Source: Lujinxingiaceae bacterium (GTDB taxonomy: Bacteria; Myxococcota_A; Bradymonadia; Bradymonadales; Bradymonadaceae). From it: a DNA stretch of 62,288 nt. This document shows positions 33,569-54,183 of the stretch, in pieces; within the stretch, counting starts at the first letter, position 1; each line of letters opens with the position of its first letter. The DNA is taken from NCBI GenBank assembly GCA_013697635.1, contig JACCWM010000020.1, forward strand, positions 1-62,288, in the 5' to 3' direction. The position numbers and the translations under genes are program-made. The notes under the pieces are model-generated. The model saw nothing but the letters and a program-made list of their open reading frames with translations. It was not told the origin of the DNA and ran no database searches.

Positions 33569-36283
33569 TTAGTTGCCGTGGGGTTGAAGCTGGGTTCGGG
33601 CGACACGTGCCGCTTCGCGCAGCGGCTTGCTGCGATCGCGAGAGAGCTCGGTGAGCGTTCCGGGTCGGGCGTGCTCGAGATAGGTCAACAGGATAATCAG
33701 GCTGTCACCTCCATTGTCTCGCTTGATCGCGCGGGTCAGAGGCGCCATCAAACGCTCGCCGTAGCGTGCCAGGGCCTGGGCTAGCTGCTGCTTGTTGCCC
33801 TGGCGAGCGGGATCGATGAGCGCTTCGAGCAGCACCGGGATGGCCGTGGTGCTGCGAAGGGCGACCAGCGCGCGCGCGGCGATGTAGGTGGCGCTGGGGC
33901 CGCTGGTCTCAACGCAGCGAACCAACTCGGTTTCTAAACCGTCGGCCTTGGTTTCAAAGAATTTGGCCAGGGCGGCGATCTCGGTGGCGTTCATGGTCTC
34001 GGAGGCCTCGAGTACGGCGGAGGTCGCCGCCGAACCGAAGCGCTCGATTAAAACTTGTGCGGCCTCCAGGCGGCCGTTTCCGTCCTCGAGCATCAGCTCG
34101 AGGTCTTCTCGGGGCATGGTCGCCATGTCATCGAAGGCATCGATGAGCGCCGAATCGGGCAGAAAATAGGTGACACCGGTGCTCTCGGACTTGCGGGCGA
34201 CGACGAGTTCATCGAAATCGACCGCGTCAGCCATCGCCTGGAACTGGCCCGCGTCGAGTTCGACTTCGTCGTCGTCTTCAACGGCCTCGGAGATCTCGCC
34301 TGCGTCGATGTTCTCCTGGTGCTCTTGAGCGCGCTTGAGGCTGATCTCGGCGAGCTCGATGACGCTGGGGTCGGGGGAGATGCCCACGAGGCTCGCGAGC
34401 TCGAGCAGCGCGTCCCAGTTCTCCCACTGCTGAATCGGATCGAGATCGTTGGAGCGGATGCCGACGGTGACTTCGGCGAAGTTCGCGATCAAACGCTCAG
34501 CGAGCGTGCGTGAGTCGGACGCGAGGCCTTCTTCCAGGGCAACGCTTTGAAGCGCCATGTTGATGAAGATGCCCCACTCGATCGCCTGTTGGACGACGCG
34601 CCTCTGGATGGCGCGAAAGTCCATGATGGGAAAGCAGCGAATGCCGATCAAGTAGTCGTAGATATCGCCAAGCGACCAGTAGCCGACGATTCCGGCGGCG
34701 AGCTTGGCCTGAGAGGCCTTGGTGGCCTGGGCAAAGCTGTCCTTGTCGAAGTTGTGGCGCATCGTGCCCAGGCGCTCGAAGTCGTCGGCAACGTAGGTAC
34801 GCGAGGCCGTCGAGAAGGCTGTGGCGTCGACTTTGTTGGTGGTCAGATAGCGCTCGGCGCGCTCGCGCGCCCAGGCGATGTTTTCCGCCAGTGGCAAGGC
34901 CAGCTCAAAGGCCGCGGCCAAACCGCCGCTGTCGCCGTAGATGGCGATGCGAGCGCGCTGCTCGCTTGCAAGCTTGTCGAGCACGAGTTGGTCTTGCTTG
35001 TAATTGACGTTGATCGGCCAGGCGATCGACTCGATGGCTTGCTCTTTGGCGTCGACGGCGGCCAAGACCAGGGCGAGCATGGGAAAGGAGTCAACCTCGC
35101 GGTACTGGATGAAGACGCGGCGCGCGGCGCCGACGAATTGCTCGGCGCGCGCGTTGGGCAGTCGCCAGATTCCGAGCACGAGATCGCCGGCCGGGTCGAG
35201 GGCGTAGTGGCGCCCCGCCGATATTTTGGGGTCAAAGGTGGCAGGCACCTGGTCGTAGTCGATTTCGGTGACGCGGACCTGGGTGGGCTTGCTCGATTTG
35301 GAGGCTCGCAGCAAACCTGTGGTGATTTGCGTGGCTTCAGCGGCGAAGTCTTCCTCGTCGTCGGCGAGCCGGTCGGCGGGCTCGTCAATCTCTTCGATGT
35401 CGTAGTCATCGACTTCCTCGACGAGCCTCTCGCTCGCCAGCGGGGCGCGCACGACCTCAATGAACTGGTCGTCGGTGACGACCTGGGTGCTCTCGACGGG
35501 CTCGTCGTGTCCGCCCTGGGAGAGGCGCAGTTGAGCTTGTTCGGCGCTGAGTTTCTGGAAATCGAGTTCGCGGCGCTGCTCCTCGAGCTGCTCGCGCAGC
35601 GCATGAAGGGTCGCACGCTCGGCGGCGACGCCCTCGAGGGCCTCGTCGAGGCGCGCGCTCTCACGCTCGAGGCGTGTGGAGACTTCGTCGAGTTGCTCGC
35701 GGGTGATGCCGATGTTGTGGCGCTCCTGCTCGAGTTGGCGGCGTTGCTCGTCGAGACGCGCCTGAGCCTCGCGGTTGCGGGCCTCATGCTCGCCGGCGTC
35801 GGCGGCCTGGCCGGGCGCGGCGCCGATGGTCGTGGCCTCCTCGGGCTGCGCAGGCTCGATGCGTGGGGGATTGGCCTCCAGGGCTTCGAGCTGGGCGAAG
35901 GTAAAGACCGTGTGAAAGCCTGCCAGGTAGCTGGGCAAGAGCTCGCGCTCACGGGCGAGCTCTTCGAGCAGCTCACTACGTCGCTTGAACTCCTCGTGGC
36001 GAAGCTCCTCGGGGATGAGCAGCACATAGAGACGCAGCGCCTCGTTGTGATAGCGCAGCGGGATCGCCAATTTGTAGACCTGATCGGAGAAGGGGCAAGC
36101 CACGTGATTGAGCGTGCCGGCGAGCAGCGCTTCGCGCAACTCAGGATTTTGCGTCGCGTTGACGCACGTGTACACGTTGGCCGGAAAGACCGGCCCGCTG
36201 GCGCTGCTGATCAGCACGGACGTTTGCGCCGTACGGCCCAGATGGCCCACGTAGGGCTGCTCGATCCCCATTGTCAAATCCAT
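33569..36283 (-). CDS. Very large protein: degenerate CpXC-like domain, coiled coil and HEAT-like C-terminus
   Basis: A 904-residue soluble protein. Residues 1-120 match the pattern of the CpXC domain (PELREALLAGTLNHVACP, then IPLRYHNEALRLYVLLIP), but the usual zinc CxxC pairs are reduced to single Cys. About 150-270 is a Glu/Arg coiled coil, about 275-330 is acidic, about 350-530 is alpha/beta, and the last 150 residues look like HEAT-type helices (AARALVALRSTTAIPVLLEAL). Start ATG 36283 follows CGAGGAATTTC. Function unknown; a scaffold is the best guess. Confidence 0.75.
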   Translation of the reverse strand: MDLTMGIEQPYVGHLGRTAQTSVLISSASGPVFPANVYTCVNATQNPELREALLAGTLNHVACPFSDQVYKLAIPLRYHNEALRLYVLLIPEELRHEEFKRRSELLEELARERELLPSYLAGFHTVFTFAQLEALEANPPRIEPAQPEEATTIGAAPGQAADAGEHEARNREAQARLDEQRRQLEQERHNIGITREQLDEVSTRLERESARLDEALEGVAAERATLHALREQLEEQRRELDFQKLSAEQAQLRLSQGGHDEPVESTQVVTDDQFIEVVRAPLASERLVEEVDDYDIEEIDEPADRLADDEEDFAAEATQITTGLLRASKSSKPTQVRVTEIDYDQVPATFDPKISAGRHYALDPAGDLVLGIWRLPNARAEQFVGAARRVFIQYREVDSFPMLALVLAAVDAKEQAIESIAWPINVNYKQDQLVLDKLASEQRARIAIYGDSGGLAAAFELALPLAENIAWARERAERYLTTNKVDATAFSTASRTYVADDFERLGTMRHNFDKDSFAQATKASQAKLAAGIVGYWSLGDIYDYLIGIRCFPIMDFRAIQRRVVQQAIEWGIFINMALQSVALEEGLASDSRTLAERLIANFAEVTVGIRSNDLDPIQQWENWDALLELASLVGISPDPSVIELAEISLKRAQEHQENIDAGEISEAVEDDDEVELDAGQFQAMADAVDFDELVVARKSESTGVTYFLPDSALIDAFDDMATMPREDLELMLEDGNGRLEAAQVLIERFGSAATSAVLEASETMNATEIAALAKFFETKADGLETELVRCVETSGPSATYIAARALVALRSTTAIPVLLEALIDPARQGNKQQLAQALARYGERLMAPLTRAIKRDNGGDSLIILLTYLEHARPGTLTELSRDRSKPLREAARVARTQLQPHGN

Positions 36284-36693
36284 GAAATTCCTCGAGTGCA
36301 TGTTGAAACCCGAAGCCGTAGCGTCGATGTTTACTGTCCATACCACGGGGTATTTAGGAGCATCAAGATGTAAGCCGCTATTAAAGAGAGCAGGGATGCT
36401 GAAAATGCGGGCATTTAGCCGACTCTGCCCCCTGCTCTTTGAGCATTGCCGAGGGCGACGCAATCAGAATTTTGATGCGCTGGCGCCCAACAAGGGCCGG
36501 TTGCGGGCCATGCATGAGACGGCGGCGATTTATTTGAACCCATGATCGCGCTTTCAAAACGTGGCTGACACGACGATCGCGGCTAAAAAGATCACAAAAA
36601 GATCAAGGCGTGGATCGGTGTTTGCAATTTATCCTCGTTGACGATGGCCGCAGCCGGGCCATGGTCGCCAGTGTCTCACGGTCGAGGTCGAAA
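36284..36693. other. Divergent intergenic region
   Basis: A 410-bp gap. The open frame on the plus strand continues into it from the next gene but lacks a ribosome site or signal. Apart from a near-repeat of AAAAAGATCA around 36586-36606, I see no structure. Confidence 0.4.
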
Positions 36694-46782: not shown

Positions 46783-47685
46783 TCAAGTGGTTGGGCTGAG
46801 CAGCGGACAATCCGGTGGCGCCGCAAAGCGAATCGCATGGCCGACGACCTGCGCCCGCAGTGTTTGCTCACAGATCGGCTCGCCGTCGAGATTGACGGCA
46901 AACAGCTCGGCACTGTCGATCTCGATCCAGGGCGCTTGATGGTAGCTGACGAACTCACCCTCGCTCGAGAGGTCACGCAGGTCTTGGATCAAGCCGGCGA
47001 CGTCTTGCAGCTCAAAGCGATGCACGACGAAGACGTCGAGCAGCCCGTCGTCGAGCAAGGCATTGGGTGCGACGAGCTTGCCGCCGCCGGCGAGCCGGCC
47101 GTTGGCGATGCAGGGAACAACGGCGATCACGGGCTCGCAGAAGGCGTCCATGGAGACGGCGACGCGCTTGGGCTGGAAGTTGAGCGCCATCGCGGCGGCC
47201 ATCAGAGCGTACGCTGCGCCGCCGAAGGCGGCCTTGAGCTCGGCCGGAGTGTTGGCGGTGACTTCGGCGCCAAAGCCAATGGAGGCGACATTGAGGCAGT
47301 AGCGCTCGTTGATCTGTAAAACGTCGATCGGCCGTGGTGGAGACTTTGCGGCGATCATCAAGGCCGCAAAGAGCGAGGCGGGAACAGCGCAGGCCGTTGC
47401 GAAGTCGTTGGCTGTGCCCAGGGGCAAGACACCGAGGATCGGGCGCTGGGCGTCGTCGAGCTGCATCAAGGCGTTGACAACCTCGTTGAGCGTGCCGTCG
47501 CCACCGGCGGCGACGAGGCGTTGGACGCCAGCGGCGGCGGCTTCCTGTGTATAGCGCAGGGTATCGCCATCCTCCCAGAGGACACGCACTTCGATCACGA
47601 CCCCCTGTTCGCGCGCGAGCGCCACAGCCTCGCGCACGTCGTCGCGATCGCAGGACTTTCCGTTGAGCAACAATCGCAGATGCAT
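46783..47685 (-). CDS. Diacylglycerol kinase-family lipid kinase (YegS-like)
   Basis: A 300-residue enzyme. Nucleotide-binding motif AAGGDGTLNEVVNAL, then GVLPLGTANDFA, and the C-terminal ANGRLAGGGKLVAPNALLDDGLLDV, all typical of the YegS/DagK catalytic family. It phosphorylates a lipid (diacylglycerol, phosphatidylglycerol or a sphingoid base); the acceptor is not evident. Start ATG 47685 follows GGAGAGAGCC; the longer frame to 47829 is not supported. Divergent from the pseudokinase gene. Confidence 0.92.
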   Translation of the reverse strand: MHLRLLLNGKSCDRDDVREAVALAREQGVVIEVRVLWEDGDTLRYTQEAAAAGVQRLVAAGGDGTLNEVVNALMQLDDAQRPILGVLPLGTANDFATACAVPASLFAALMIAAKSPPRPIDVLQINERYCLNVASIGFGAEVTANTPAELKAAFGGAAYALMAAAMALNFQPKRVAVSMDAFCEPVIAVVPCIANGRLAGGGKLVAPNALLDDGLLDVFVVHRFELQDVAGLIQDLRDLSSEGEFVSYHQAPWIEIDSAELFAVNLDGEPICEQTLRAQVVGHAIRFAAPPDCPLLSPTT

Positions 47686-47840
47686 GGCTCTCTCCTCAGG
47701 AGGGTATGGTGCTCTTGAAAATGTACCGACGAGACGGCGGCGGGCAAATTCCATCTGGCTTGTGACACATACAACAGTGTGGAAGACTATGCTCACTTTT
47801 GAGTGCATGTTTTGCGAGAACTTTTGCACAGGGTACGACG

Positions 47841-50027
47841 ATGATTTGTGCGCGATGTGGAGCCCTGGTCAACGATCAGGTGACGTTTTGCAGTGATTGT
47901 GGATCCAATCCGGTGCTCGAGGGTCGCTACCGGCTCGAAGAGATCGTCGGCCAAAGTGCCACCAGCGCCACGTACCGGGCGACCGATGTCATCGACGGGC
48001 TGGTGGTCACGGTCAAGGCGATGACCGCCAACAGTGAGCACGCCCAGGGGGCGCGCTCGCGTTTCTTGCGCGAGGCGCGCTCGTTGCGCCAGCTTCGCCA
48101 TGGCGGCATTGCCGCCCACGTGAACAGCTTTGCGGTCGAGCGGGGCACCGAGCCCACATTTTATATTGTCGAAGAGTTCGTGCAGGGCCAAAGCCTGGCC
48201 GAGGAGCTTGCCGGCCATCACTACGCCGAGCTCGAGGCGTTGATCATGGCGCGTGAGCTGCTGCGCATCGCGGCCTATCTGCACGGCTTGCATCCGGCGC
48301 TCGTTCACGGGGCGATCGAGCCGGCCAATGTCATGCGCCGGCGCAGCGACCATGGATTCATGCTCATCGATTTCGAGTGTGTGCGCGCCGCGCTTTTAGG
48401 GCCGGGGCGCCGCCTGCAGTCGGCCTTCATCGCGCCCGAGCAGCTTCGCGGTGAGCCGGCTGGCGAGGCCAGCGACGTGTTTGGGATCGGAGCGACGGCC
48501 CTGGCGCTGATCCATGGCGGCGCGCTGGGGCGCGATGACCGGATGAACCTGGACTGGCGAGGCCGTGTCAACCTCTCGGCGCCAGCGAGCGCGCTGATCG
48601 CGCGCATGGTCGCCGATGAGCCTGGCGAGCGAATCAGCGCGCGCGCCGCTGTGCTCGAGCTCGATGCCCTGCTTGGCGAGCGCCCACTCGGTCCGCCGCG
48701 AAAGCGCCACCCCTCGCTGCTGCCGGACTACGCGCGCGTGCCAGCCAAGGCCAACAACGCGGCCTTGTTTGTGATGATCGGTGTCATGGGCCTCGCGGTG
48801 CTGATCGGCGGGGTCTTGGCCATGTCGACGACCGACTCCGAGAATCCCGTGGAAGATGTCGTTGATTTTCACGCGGCGCAACGCATTAATTTCTTGCGCC
48901 TATGCGTGGTCGATAAACAAATGCCGGCCTGCAACTCGCTGGGGTGGCTGCATGCTCAGGGGCTCGGTGGTTTGGCCAGCAGCGAGTCGGCCGCAACCTA
49001 TTATGAGATGGCGTGCGAAGGCGGCGATGCCCAAGGCTGTCACTACCTCGGCCACCACAAAATGGCGGCGCCAGAGCTCGATTATGCCAGCGCACGCCTG
49101 CTGTTCGACAGGTCGTGCCAGGGACATTTCGTCGACGGCTGTGTGAGTTTGGCTTGGCTCTATGAGAGCGGCCTGGGTGGAGCCGTCGATGTCCAGCGTG
49201 CGCGTGAGATGTACGAGAGCGCCTGCGAGCGCCATCAGACCAGAGCCTGCACCAACCTGGGCTGGATGTACGCCCAGGGCATCGGCGGCTCGCCCGATCT
49301 CGACAAAGGCCTGCGGCTGCTTCAAAAAGCCTGTCAGGCCGACGACGCCTCGGCCTGCTACCGCGTCGGCTGGCTGTATGCTCAGGTCAGGGACGACATC
49401 ACCCAGGATCTGGATTTTACGCGGCGTATGTACCAGAAGGCCTGCTCAGGCGGCGATCTGGAGGCTTGCACCGCGCAGGGCTGGCTGCTCGAAAATGGCA
49501 TGGGCGGCGCCCAAGACGTGGCCCAGGCCTTGAGCCTCTATGAGCGCGCTTGCAACGGGCTGCAGATGACCGGCTGCAGCAATCTCGGCTGGTTTTATGC
49601 CGCCGGCAAACACGTCGCGCGCGACCTAAGTCGCGGCATTGCCCTGCTCGAGCAATCCTGCAATGGCAATTACATGAGCGCCTGCAATAACCTGGGCTGG
49701 ATCTACTCCCAGAGCGAATGGATCGAACACAACTTTGCCCGTGCCCACGCCTGGTTCGAGCGCGGCTGCGCCGGTGAAGACTTGTCATCGTGCACGAGCC
49801 TGGGATGGCTCTACACCAACGGTCATGGCGTCGCGATCGATTTCGTGCGCGCCAGGACGCTCTTCGAGCCGGCCTGCGCGTCCAACATCATGCCGGCCTG
49901 CATGAATCTCGGCTGGCTCTACGGCGGTGGTCACGGCGTCGAGCTCGACGCCGCCCGCTCGACTGGCTACTATCAGCGAGCTTGTGCAGGCGGCGAGGAG
50001 CGCGCCTGCGTGGCGCTGCAAAAGTGA
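47841..50027 (+). CDS. Zinc-ribbon membrane pseudokinase with ten disulfide-type Sel1 repeats
   Basis: A 728-residue protein. Residues 1-20 are a zinc ribbon (CARCG...CSDCG). Residues 30-280 are a Ser/Thr kinase fold with a degenerate glycine loop, Lys kept in VTVKAM, HGAIEPAN in place of HRDxKPxN (catalytic Asp lost) and DFE in place of DFG. One membrane helix follows near 320-340. Then come ten Sel1-like repeats of about 36 residues (CTNLGWMYAQGIGG type), each with Cys pairs spaced C-x7-C as in Helicobacter Hcp proteins. This predicts a cytoplasmic pseudokinase and a periplasmic, disulfide-stapled repeat domain. Confidence 0.88.
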   Translation: MICARCGALVNDQVTFCSDCGSNPVLEGRYRLEEIVGQSATSATYRATDVIDGLVVTVKAMTANSEHAQGARSRFLREARSLRQLRHGGIAAHVNSFAVERGTEPTFYIVEEFVQGQSLAEELAGHHYAELEALIMARELLRIAAYLHGLHPALVHGAIEPANVMRRRSDHGFMLIDFECVRAALLGPGRRLQSAFIAPEQLRGEPAGEASDVFGIGATALALIHGGALGRDDRMNLDWRGRVNLSAPASALIARMVADEPGERISARAAVLELDALLGERPLGPPRKRHPSLLPDYARVPAKANNAALFVMIGVMGLAVLIGGVLAMSTTDSENPVEDVVDFHAAQRINFLRLCVVDKQMPACNSLGWLHAQGLGGLASSESAATYYEMACEGGDAQGCHYLGHHKMAAPELDYASARLLFDRSCQGHFVDGCVSLAWLYESGLGGAVDVQRAREMYESACERHQTRACTNLGWMYAQGIGGSPDLDKGLRLLQKACQADDASACYRVGWLYAQVRDDITQDLDFTRRMYQKACSGGDLEACTAQGWLLENGMGGAQDVAQALSLYERACNGLQMTGCSNLGWFYAAGKHVARDLSRGIALLEQSCNGNYMSACNNLGWIYSQSEWIEHNFARAHAWFERGCAGEDLSSCTSLGWLYTNGHGVAIDFVRARTLFEPACASNIMPACMNLGWLYGGGHGVELDAARSTGYYQRACAGGEERACVALQK

Positions 50028-50059: not shown

Positions 50060-51433
50060 TCACGCTTGGTCGAGCACGTCTTGCTCGCGGTATTGCTTGA
50101 GCTTGTAGTAGAGCTTGCGCTCAGAAATCCCCAAGATCTGCGCGGCGTCACGGGCGTTTCCAACGGCCTGATAGGTGCGCAAGATCGCCTCGCGTTCGAG
50201 CTCCTCGAGGGTCATTCCAGGCACGCGCAGCTCCCGGTTTTTGGGCATGGTATCTTCGCGCACCACGGCCGGCAGCGCTCGAGGCGTAATGCGCGCAGCC
50301 GAGCGCATGGTCATGGCCCGGCGCGCAAGGTTGGCAAGCTCGCGCACATTGCCGGGCCACTGGTGGCGCAGCAGCGAGCGGATCACGTCCGGGTCGGTCG
50401 TGCGAGGCGCGCAGCCCTCCTCGCTCGCCCACAGACGCACGAAATGATCCCACAAAAGTGCGATGTCCTGGCCGCGCTCGCGAAGCGGCGGCAACTCGAT
50501 GCCGAGCACGTTGAGCCGGTAGAAGAGATCCGCTCGGAAGTGGCCGCGGCCGGCCTGCAGATCGGAGTTGGTCGCGGCGAGCAGGCGCACGTCGGCCGTG
50601 ATCGATTGCGAGGAGCCGACACGCTCGAAGCTTCGCTCCTGGAGCACACGCAGCAGCTTGACCTGCATGGCTTGGGGCAGCTCGCCTATCTCGTCGAGAA
50701 AGAGCGTTCCGCCGTGGGCCAGCTCAAAGCGGCCCTTGCGCAGGCTGGTGGCCCCTGTAAAGGCGCCCTTTTCATGGCCGAAGAGCTCGGCCTCAAGCAG
50801 GTTTTCAGGGATCGCGCCACAGTTGATCGCGATGAAGGGGGCATCGCGCCGCGGCGAGAAGCGGTGGATCGCCTGGGCGACGACCTCCTTGCCCGTGCCG
50901 CTCTCTCCGCTGATGAGAATGGAGGCATTGGAAGGCGCCGAAGCGGCGATCAGGCGGCAAACCTCCATCATCGGCACACACTCGCCGATGATATCGAGCT
51001 GGTCGATGCGCCCGTGTGGCTGCGGCGAATCGTTGCTTCGTCGAAGCTCTTGCTCGACGATGCGCACCAGATCGTCGGCGGCGATCTCGGCGTCCACGAC
51101 CGTGTCGACGCTCCATCGCACAGCCTGGCGAAGGGCGGCCGGTGTGTATTGCTCGACGAGCATGAGGCGGACCATGCGCTCGCGTGACAGATCGCGACAG
51201 AGCTCGCCGGCGTTGGGTACCTCGAGCAGGCTGTGATCGAAGATCACGACCTGGGGCGAGAGGCGCTCGAGGCATGATTCAACCTGATCGAACGCCGCCA
51301 TGGTGATCGCTATCTGTGCGTGCCCTGCGAGTTTGGCGTACAGGAGCCTGCCCCCATGAGGCGAGGCCACGAGCAGCGCCCGCAGTTTGCCCGACCAGGG
51401 TCTGACGTGTGGCTCGAATTCGTCGCAACCCAT
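50060..51433 (-). CDS. Sigma-54-dependent transcriptional activator with degenerate receiver
   Basis: A 457-residue regulator. The N-terminal receiver-like domain keeps the central Asp (VVIFDHSLL) but lacks the N-terminal acidic pair and the Lys-Pro motif, so phosphorylation is doubtful. The AAA+ domain has GESGTGKE, the sigma-54 contact loop GAFTGA, LFLDEIGELP and an arginine-finger region (FRADLFYRLNV). The Fis-type helix-turn-helix is at the end (NARDAAQILGISERKLYYKLK). Start ATG 51433. Convergent with the pseudokinase; followed upstream by a receiver gene. Confidence 0.93.
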   Translation of the reverse strand: MGCDEFEPHVRPWSGKLRALLVASPHGGRLLYAKLAGHAQIAITMAAFDQVESCLERLSPQVVIFDHSLLEVPNAGELCRDLSRERMVRLMLVEQYTPAALRQAVRWSVDTVVDAEIAADDLVRIVEQELRRSNDSPQPHGRIDQLDIIGECVPMMEVCRLIAASAPSNASILISGESGTGKEVVAQAIHRFSPRRDAPFIAINCGAIPENLLEAELFGHEKGAFTGATSLRKGRFELAHGGTLFLDEIGELPQAMQVKLLRVLQERSFERVGSSQSITADVRLLAATNSDLQAGRGHFRADLFYRLNVLGIELPPLRERGQDIALLWDHFVRLWASEEGCAPRTTDPDVIRSLLRHQWPGNVRELANLARRAMTMRSAARITPRALPAVVREDTMPKNRELRVPGMTLEELEREAILRTYQAVGNARDAAQILGISERKLYYKLKQYREQDVLDQA

Positions 51434-51575
51434 AGCGCACCAGGGACAAGGAAGAGGACAAAGCGCCACAGAGCCATCGAGCTGGCCGAGGCCGGCTTCG
51501 CGAAGCTCGCCACGACGATCGCCGCTGACCGGTCAACTTGCAACCACGATCACCCGAACCACAGCTCGGTTTACA

Positions 51576-52124: not shown

Positions 52125-52433
52125 CTCAGACCTCCTTGAATTGACGAATGACAACGCTGTACAAATGACAGCCTGAAAAAGTGTTCTTCAAGGGTTGTGC
52201 CATCGCCGTGTGCGCTTAGCGATCGAGGCCAAGGAGCAGCACCTGCACTGCAAGAGTTGCGCAATTGGAGATGCTGTCGAGGATTTGCTGCAATAACTGC
52301 AGTGCCATCTCACGGCTGAGCTCGACCGCGAGCACAATGCCGGCGGCAGGCAGAAGGCTTGATCGCGGCGGCATCCTTCTTGCTCTTATAAGTGCGATGG
52401 CCTTGGACGCGAGGCGGTGATTGGAGAGCTGTG
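52125..52433. other. Divergent regulatory region between receiver and histidine kinase genes
   Basis: 309 bp without a gene. CTGCA-ATAAC-TGCAG at 52288-52302 is an inverted repeat also present, with another spacer, at 50042-50056. No clear -35/-10 or -24/-12 boxes were found. Confidence 0.45.
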
Positions 52434-53807
52434 ATGATAGATGAACTAGAGCGCATGATGATCGAGAGTGAAGCTTATTGCGAGGGTCTCGATGACCGCT
52501 CCGAAGAGCTCAGTGAGCGCTCGGCGGAGGACGCCCAGATCCGCTTTTATCGGGCGATGGCTCAGACGGGCATTCAATACGAGAAGTTGCTCCCGGAGCT
52601 TGCTCGGGCGGTGGCCGACGTGATGTTCGATGCCTGCCTGGTCTACCGGGTGGTCGACGACGGGCCGGCGATCGAACTTGCGGGCGTCTACCACCCCAAT
52701 GCCCATGCGCTGAGCACTCTGGAGCGCACCTACGATGCCCATGAGCTGCGCGTGGGTGAGGGGATCGTCGGCGGGGTGATCGCCACCCAGCAGCCGTATT
52801 TTCGGGAGCGTTGGAGCCGCGCAGAGATCGAGCGCGAGGCCCAGGCCCCCTTTGTGAGCATGGTCCTGGCGCTGAAGGTGCACGGCTTGATCGTGGTCCC
52901 GCTGGTGACCAGCGAGGGCCAGGTGCTGGGGGCGATCGCCGTGATGCGTCACACGACGACGGCCTCGTTTCTGGCGCGCGATCTGGCGCTGGCGCAGTGG
53001 ATCGCCTCGCACGCGGCGATGCAGCTCGACACGGCCCGGCTGTACCAGAACCTGAGGGCGACCAATGCTCGCCTCGATCAGGCGCTCAAAGCGCGCGACG
53101 TGTTCATCTCGATGGCGGCCCATGAGCTTCGCACGCCGCTGACGGCGATGAAGCTGCAGGTTCACATGCTCATGCACCAGAGCGACGATGCCCACGATTC
53201 CCAGAGCGGCAAGCCCAATCCTCTGGCTGGCGGTCTGGGCTCGATCAACACCCAGATCGACCGGCTCAACCGGCTGGTCTCTCAGCTGCTCGACGTCTCG
53301 GTGATGGACAGCGGTGGCCTGGCGCCCGAGCTTGCCCTCACGGATCTGGGCCTGGTGGTGCGCGAGGTGGCCCGGCGCTTCGCGCTCGAGCTCAACCGCG
53401 CCAATTGTGCGCTGCGCCTGCACCTGGAGACCACGCAAATCGGGCACTGGGACCGCGACCGCATTGATCAGGTGGTCACCAATTTGCTTTCCAACGCGAT
53501 CAAATACGGCGCGGGCAAACCGATCGAGATCGAGGTCAGCGCCGCAGGCGCCATGGCGCGCCTCACCGTGCGCGATCATGGCATGGGCATCGACGAGGCC
53601 AACAGGGAGCGCATCTTTGAGCGCTTCGAGCGCCTGGTCTCACGCCGCCAGGTGAGCGGGTTGGGTCTGGGTCTTTGGATCGTGCGCCGCATCGTCGAAA
53701 TGCATGATGGCACGATCACGCTCACCAGCGCCCCCGGAGAAGGCTCGAGCTTTGCCGTCGAGTTACCACGCAGCGGTCCAACCCAGGAGCGAAACGATGA
53801 ACATTGA
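52434..53807 (+). CDS. GAF-domain histidine kinase
   Basis: A 457-residue soluble kinase. Residues 40-205 are a GAF sensor domain. The H box AAHELRTPLTAMK is near 236. ATP-binding motifs are TNLLSNAIKYG (N box), DHGMGID (G1) and GLGLGLWIVRRIV (G2). There are no membrane helices, so it senses an internal signal or partner. ATG 52434 follows GGAGAG. Overlaps the next receiver gene by 11 bp. Confidence 0.93.
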   Translation: MIDELERMMIESEAYCEGLDDRSEELSERSAEDAQIRFYRAMAQTGIQYEKLLPELARAVADVMFDACLVYRVVDDGPAIELAGVYHPNAHALSTLERTYDAHELRVGEGIVGGVIATQQPYFRERWSRAEIEREAQAPFVSMVLALKVHGLIVVPLVTSEGQVLGAIAVMRHTTTASFLARDLALAQWIASHAAMQLDTARLYQNLRATNARLDQALKARDVFISMAAHELRTPLTAMKLQVHMLMHQSDDAHDSQSGKPNPLAGGLGSINTQIDRLNRLVSQLLDVSVMDSGGLAPELALTDLGLVVREVARRFALELNRANCALRLHLETTQIGHWDRDRIDQVVTNLLSNAIKYGAGKPIEIEVSAAGAMARLTVRDHGMGIDEANRERIFERFERLVSRRQVSGLGLGLWIVRRIVEMHDGTITLTSAPGEGSSFAVELPRSGPTQERNDEH

Positions 53808-54183
53808 TCTCAAGATTGGAAAAGACGTCTTGCTCGTCGAGGATGACCGGGAGACGCTCGAAGCCATGAGCACGCTGCTCCAGTACTACGGCTATTCGCT
53901 TGCCACGGCCGAAAACGGCCAGCAGGCCCTGGACTATCTGCGCGCTTGCCAGGCGCTGCCGCAGGTGATCTTGTTGGACATGACGATGCCGGTGATGGAC
54001 GGGCGCGAGTTTCTCACGATCCAGTGCCGTGACCAGGAGCTGCGCGCGGTGCCCGTGGTCACGATCTCGGCCATCCACAATTGCTACGGGCTGATCGAGG
54101 AGTATGGCGTGGCCCATTGTTTGAACAAGCCCGTCGATCTGGCGCGCCTCTTCGAGTTGCTGGCGCGCTATTGTGACGCCTGA
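53797..54183 (+). CDS. Single-domain response regulator
   Basis: A 128-residue receiver with VEDDRETLEAM, phospho-acceptor ILLDMTMPVMDG, VVTISAIHN and LNKPVD, all key residues present. Starts 11 bp inside the end of the histidine kinase gene, so the pair is translationally coupled and this is the likely direct target. No output domain, so it presumably acts by protein contact or phosphotransfer. Confidence 0.95.
   Translation: MNIDLKIGKDVLLVEDDRETLEAMSTLLQYYGYSLATAENGQQALDYLRACQALPQVILLDMTMPVMDGREFLTIQCRDQELRAVPVVTISAIHNCYGLIEEYGVAHCLNKPVDLARLFELLARYCDA

Follow-up and report, generated by a model that had tools for sequence, protein, structure and literature searches.

A predicted receptor-type pseudokinase with a Cys-paired Sel1 array in a Lujinxingiaceae bacterium

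The gene at positions 47841..50027 (+) of the 62,288-nucleotide window, that is the whole stretch of DNA analysed, codes for a protein of 728 residues composed, from N to C terminus, of a four-Cys zinc ribbon, a protein kinase domain, one membrane helix and a Sel1 array of the Hcp type. We propose that it is a single-pass receptor-type pseudokinase, with a Sel1 superhelix outside and a non-catalytic kinase fold inside that would act on an active kinase, and we consider this reading somewhat probable. The frame of 728 codons is uninterrupted, its ATG start matches the MICAxC start of the relatives, and GC3 is near 0.79 in the kinase half and the Sel1 half alike. Pattern scanning detected no sigma-70-like promoter or terminator near the gene end. 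The gene combines existing parts in a new manner and is not a new kind of system. A sequence-only reading had proposed a membrane pseudokinase with extracytoplasmic, Hcp-like Sel1 repeats. The motifs, Pfam matches, charge bias, AlphaFold model and structure comparison bear this out, the pseudokinase status being assigned by sequence.

The N-terminal zinc ribbon (residues 1-22; 47847..47900, +) scores under the Pfam cut-off. Nevertheless, its Cys residues 3, 6, 17 and 20 are invariant in the alignment and shared with seven relatives, in agreement with the ribbon initially put forward. The protein kinase domain follows at residues 25-280 approximately (47913..48680, +). It matches the Pkinase family of Pfam over residues 30-270 with an E value of 7e-20 and 71.9 bits, compared with a curated cut-off of 31.7. 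In the AlphaFold model, pLDDT values are >90 for most of the domain, which superimposes on PknB with a Z score of 29 and an rmsd of 2.1 over 249 residues.

Alignment to related kinases, which keep HRDIKPxN and DFG, showed that this domain is degenerate. The catalytic loop reads HGAIEPAN instead of HRDxKPxN (48306..48329, +; stretch VHGAIEPANVM), with the catalytic Asp replaced by Ala158 and the Lys by Glu160, and Asn163 retained. The DFG motif has become DFE within the stretch LIDFE (48369..48377, +), in which the metal-binding Asp177 is retained, and the beta3 Lys59 (VTVK59; 48015..48017, +) is also present. The HGAIEPAN loop without its catalytic Asp, the DFE motif and the retained Lys had been recognized initially and are correct in the ORF and the alignment. 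That account nevertheless missed several other losses. Two of the three glycines of the Gly-rich loop are replaced (GQSATS in place of GxGxxG; 47949..47966, +), the Arg of the HRD motif is gone (HRD to HGA), as is the Lys of the catalytic loop, and the activation/P+1 segment (48405..48431, +) reads GRRLQSAFI where relatives have GSTxAGTxGYM. In total, K59, the alphaC residue E78, N163, D177, the APE motif, D212 and R264 are retained. Pseudokinases are defined by the loss of the beta3 Lys, the HRD Asp or the DFG Asp (PMC12599244), and by this definition the replacement of the HRD Asp by Ala158 places the protein among them. The kinase half is thus predicted to be fully inactive, although the retained Lys, Asn and Asp residues might perhaps allow nucleotide binding, and perhaps a weak or altered activity.

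Of the 69 columns that are near-invariant in 13 relatives of the clade, the protein retains 43 (62%), whereas in a leave-one-out control every relative retained 82-100%. The losses affect 12 of the 22 active-site columns, a set picked by hand, and 14 of the 47 others, a mild enrichment that is not significant (Fisher p 0.06).

A single transmembrane helix, in N-in/C-out orientation, is predicted at residues 308-327 (48762..48821, +), with a Kyte-Doolittle peak of 2.6. It is preceded by six Lys/Arg and two Asp/Glu residues and followed by two Lys/Arg and six Asp/Glu residues. AlphaFold models a helix at 307-328, although at low confidence, and the pLDDT values of the linker and of the transmembrane segment are low. 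Thus, one membrane helix separates the kinase from the repeats, as in single-pass receptors, with low pLDDT at that place. The Cys residues are segregated as well, since the 22 located after the helix are all paired, and those before it are the four of the zinc ribbon and a free C180. Based on the charge bias across the helix, read with the positive-inside rule, and on the segregation of the Cys residues, the kinase is most likely inside and the array outside.

The Sel1 array, predicted to be extracytoplasmic, spans residues 353-724, with Pfam Sel1 matches in nine stretches (E 9e-41, above the curated cut-off). Its 11 Cys pairs extend from Cys355 to Cys723 (48903..50009, +), and the period is mostly 36 residues. 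Ten pairs are exactly C-x7-C, compared with a mean of 1.2 and a maximum of 7 in 2000 residue shuffles. Structure comparison of the C-terminal half, for which pLDDT values are mostly 60-87, retrieved Sel1 proteins, and HcpC (1ouv) aligned to the array with the same C-x7-C step; HcpC was matched by Foldseek with an E value of 3.5e-11. No PASTA repeats were found in the Pfam scan of the protein, the Sel1 repeats being there instead. The membrane helix described initially is therefore backed by the hydropathy peak, the charge bias and the low-confidence model, and structure prediction yielded the kinase fold, the helix and the Sel1 half together. The Hcp-like Cys spacing likewise holds, but the count of ten Sel1 units needs to be replaced by 11 Cys pairs, ten of which are C-x7-C. 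The presence of disulfides in the array and its periplasmic location are deduced from these features, and by analogy a sensor function is plausible. A Trp residue directly follows LG in 8 of the 9 scored Sel1 units. This is rare elsewhere, as the 40 other Cys-Sel1 proteins that we collected have it in 21 of their 484 units. Among Sel1 proteins of another kind, L004 (G000:C153; 928 residues) and L237 (G014:C73; 962 residues) combine a caspase-like half with a stretch rich in Cys and an extended Cys-Sel1 array, and both are probably exported. The caspase-like half of L004 matches Peptidase_C14 (E 7e-11); that of L237 is similar by eye, with no Pfam match.

The nearest kinase domains are those of zinc-ribbon kinases of sister genomes and of L003 in the same genome, all of which have kept the catalytic Asp. 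In a quick tree with SH-aLRT support, the protein falls inside a clade of 14 rows (SH-aLRT 97), whose other members have intact catalytic motifs. As its kinase domain nests among intact zinc-ribbon kinases of its own family, the catalytic loss is, judging from the tree, derived and not ancestral. Its end branch is 1.66 long, versus about 0.2-0.7 for the others, as expected after release from catalysis. We found no full-length orthologues in 58 relatives (whole protein, E 1e-80) or in 379 genomes of the phylum (E 1e-55), where the four matches were to Sel1 only, and a word scan of GTDB r220 contigs retrieved none. Nor did a search for kinases like L231, one of the Sel1-fused kinases described below, yield a match at E 1e-70 in 189 genomes of the phylum, a sample that apparently did not include G024, from which L231 comes.

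We searched the class with only the Sel1 half as query and then looked for kinase domains in the open frames, which revealed five further genes for proteins with a kinase, a membrane helix and a Cys-Sel1 array. Two adjoin each other at locus L229 (G025:C365:19000-26000), one is found at L234 (G031), and G024 contains L230 and L231, both of which have a ribbon-like Cys4 stretch at the N terminus. The Lys, the HRD/HKD Asp and the DFG/DYG Asp are intact in all five kinases. Thus, among the proteins of this layout that we found, only that of 47841-50027 has lost the catalytic Asp. In the kinase tree, the five fused rows are spread over separate lineages, the starred branches requiring no fewer than four label changes, and the receptor layout therefore seems to be the product of several independent fusions within the class. 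By sequence, this is a receptor-kinase design that recurs, and the protein described here is its presumed dead version. The two kinase domains of L229 are 69% identical and their genes are side by side, probably as a result of a tandem duplication. In addition, L044 (G017:C18) harbours an intact kinase, a membrane helix and a few helical repeats with paired Cys residues; these repeats cannot clearly be assigned to Sel1 and possibly represent a related input domain.

Kinases of this sort are abundant in the family. A search of the genome to which the window belongs with the kinase model collected 83 entries, including overlapping loci and fragments, and 76 of them have all three canonical residues. 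These are incomplete in the protein of 47841-50027, in L087, L115 and L117, and three further entries are fragments. L087, L115 and L117 have degraded canonical residues (HGE/KLK, HRD/GFG and FRD/GCG) and a predicted membrane helix each.

The protein might also be explained by a vestigial kinase, the Sel1 array doing the work as an anchored, Hcp-like binder and the kinase half being a decaying anchor with no part in signalling. The lack of orthologues among the 58 relatives and the 379 phylum genomes is consistent with this explanation, as are the long branch, the low retention of near-invariant columns, the non-significant enrichment of losses in the active site and the stand-alone Cys-Sel1 proteins encoded in the same genome. 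Nevertheless, the kinase has an uninterrupted frame and a fold that is modelled at high confidence, and the protein has kept APE, D212 and R264 as well as the zinc ribbon, which makes mere decay rather unlikely in our view. Conversely, the domain might be an altered enzyme that binds ATP via K59, N163 and D177 and functions as a weak kinase or another transferase, catalysing AMPylation like SelO or glutamylation like SidJ. Retention of these residues and of E78 fits with this hypothesis, and repurposed or weakly active pseudokinases have been described (PMC12599244, PMC4718504), including HER3 and CASK, which retain weak activity (PMC4718504). However, the catalytic base, the catalytic-loop Lys, two glycines of the Gly-rich loop and the P+1 segment are lost, and the SelO and SidJ families were not matched in Pfam or NCBIfam scans. 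We thus regard an altered enzyme as unlikely.

The sequence-only reading had also linked the protein with the adjacent sigma-54 activator and two-component genes. The genetic environment does not support such a signalling unit, which we deem very unlikely. Gene proximity is the argument for it, but the gene for the sigma-54 activator (AAA+, Fis-type HTH; 50060..51469, -) is on the opposite strand and convergent, and those for a GAF histidine kinase (52392-53807, +) and a response regulator (53704-54183, +) form a separate transcription unit (52392..54183) starting about 2.4 kb downstream. No operon is thus shared with any of them, the sigma-54 gene not being co-transcribed with that of the pseudokinase, and no operon partner or linked partner kinase was found in the neighbourhood. 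On the other side, the divergent neighbour codes for a YegS-like diacylglycerol/lipid kinase (46783..47829, -), with a true start probably near 47685. Farther away, a 964-residue ORF (33569-36463, -) has a CpXC domain as its only recognized feature. Lastly, as the assembly is a draft of 213 contigs, an error in sequencing or assembly, or the joining of two genes into a chimera, might be invoked. This is hardly credible, as every motif change is an in-frame substitution, five other genes share the layout and GC3 is even along the gene.

In the receptor-type pseudokinase that we favour, the disulfide-stiffened Sel1 superhelix would bind a protein, a peptide or an envelope ligand outside the cell; Sel1 superhelices of known structure are thought to be scaffolds for protein or peptide interactions (PMC3851747). 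Ligand binding would alter the dimerization or the conformation of the pseudokinase, whose fold would serve as a binding module or an allosteric switch that activates or sequesters an active Ser/Thr kinase, signalling by contact and not by phosphotransfer. In the simplest case, it would pair with that kinase, like HER3, a non-catalytic receptor kinase that pairs with EGFR or HER2 (PMC4718504); a kinase-dead EFR likewise acts on BAK1 in a non-catalytic way (PMC11259431). L003, which apart from this protein is the sole representative of the kinase clade that we found in the genome, would be the first candidate for the active partner. The probable origin of the protein is the fusion of a zinc-ribbon Ser/Thr kinase of this family with a Sel1 array of the Hcp type, catalysis being lost at some point. 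More tentatively, it is conceivable that it is a dedicated non-catalytic co-receptor controlling an active kinase, in Bradymonadia-type bacteria that would time and again use disulfide-locked Sel1 superhelices as the basis of receptor kinases. By analogy, it would then be a bacterial counterpart of HER3 or of plant receptor pseudokinases. Bacterial pseudokinases are largely unstudied (PMC12599244), and our literature search found no description of bacterial kinase-Sel1 fusions. The pseudokinase and its counterparts of like domain order, in which the catalytic residues are intact, represent a natural pair with which to ask whether dead receptor kinases serve as allosteric partners in bacteria. 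Different kinase lineages have apparently been joined to Cys-paired Sel1 arrays more than once, which suggests an input domain for kinases that we did not see described in the literature consulted.

The described families of bacterial pseudokinases, EssB/YukC, ActPs1-3, GLW, CP1, DYD and DLHK (PMC12599244), share with this protein a kinase fold with degraded motifs, and several are membrane-anchored. The protein differs from them in that it retains the Lys and the DFG Asp and has lost the HRD Asp. The motifs of the GLW, DYD and DLHK families are different when compared by eye, and CP1 has COG3899 and, unlike our protein, no transmembrane segment. That review (PMC12599244) makes no mention of a Sel1, zinc-ribbon or myxococcal pseudokinase family. 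The zinc-ribbon kinases of the same clade (L003, L032-L040, L051-L053) are 31-38% identical to it over the ribbon and kinase in the alignment, but they have intact HRDIKPxN and DFG motifs, other or no C-terminal domains, and no Sel1 array. The proteins of L229, L230, L231 and L234 have the same layout, with a ribbon-like stretch in two of them, but intact catalytic residues and kinases of other lineages. With the receptor Ser/Thr kinases of the PknB/PASTA type, the closeness in fold to PknB extends to a cytoplasmic kinase, one membrane helix and extracytoplasmic repeats; however, the latter are Cys-paired Sel1 units in place of PASTA, a zinc ribbon is present at the N terminus, and the catalytic Asp and the P+1 segment are lost. 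HcpB and HcpC of Helicobacter harbour similar 36-residue Sel1 repeats with C-x7-C pairs, and inter-repeat disulfides have been described for Hcp proteins (PMC3851747). Nevertheless, those are free, secreted proteins, whereas the array described here is joined to a membrane kinase, and a Trp follows LG in most of its units.
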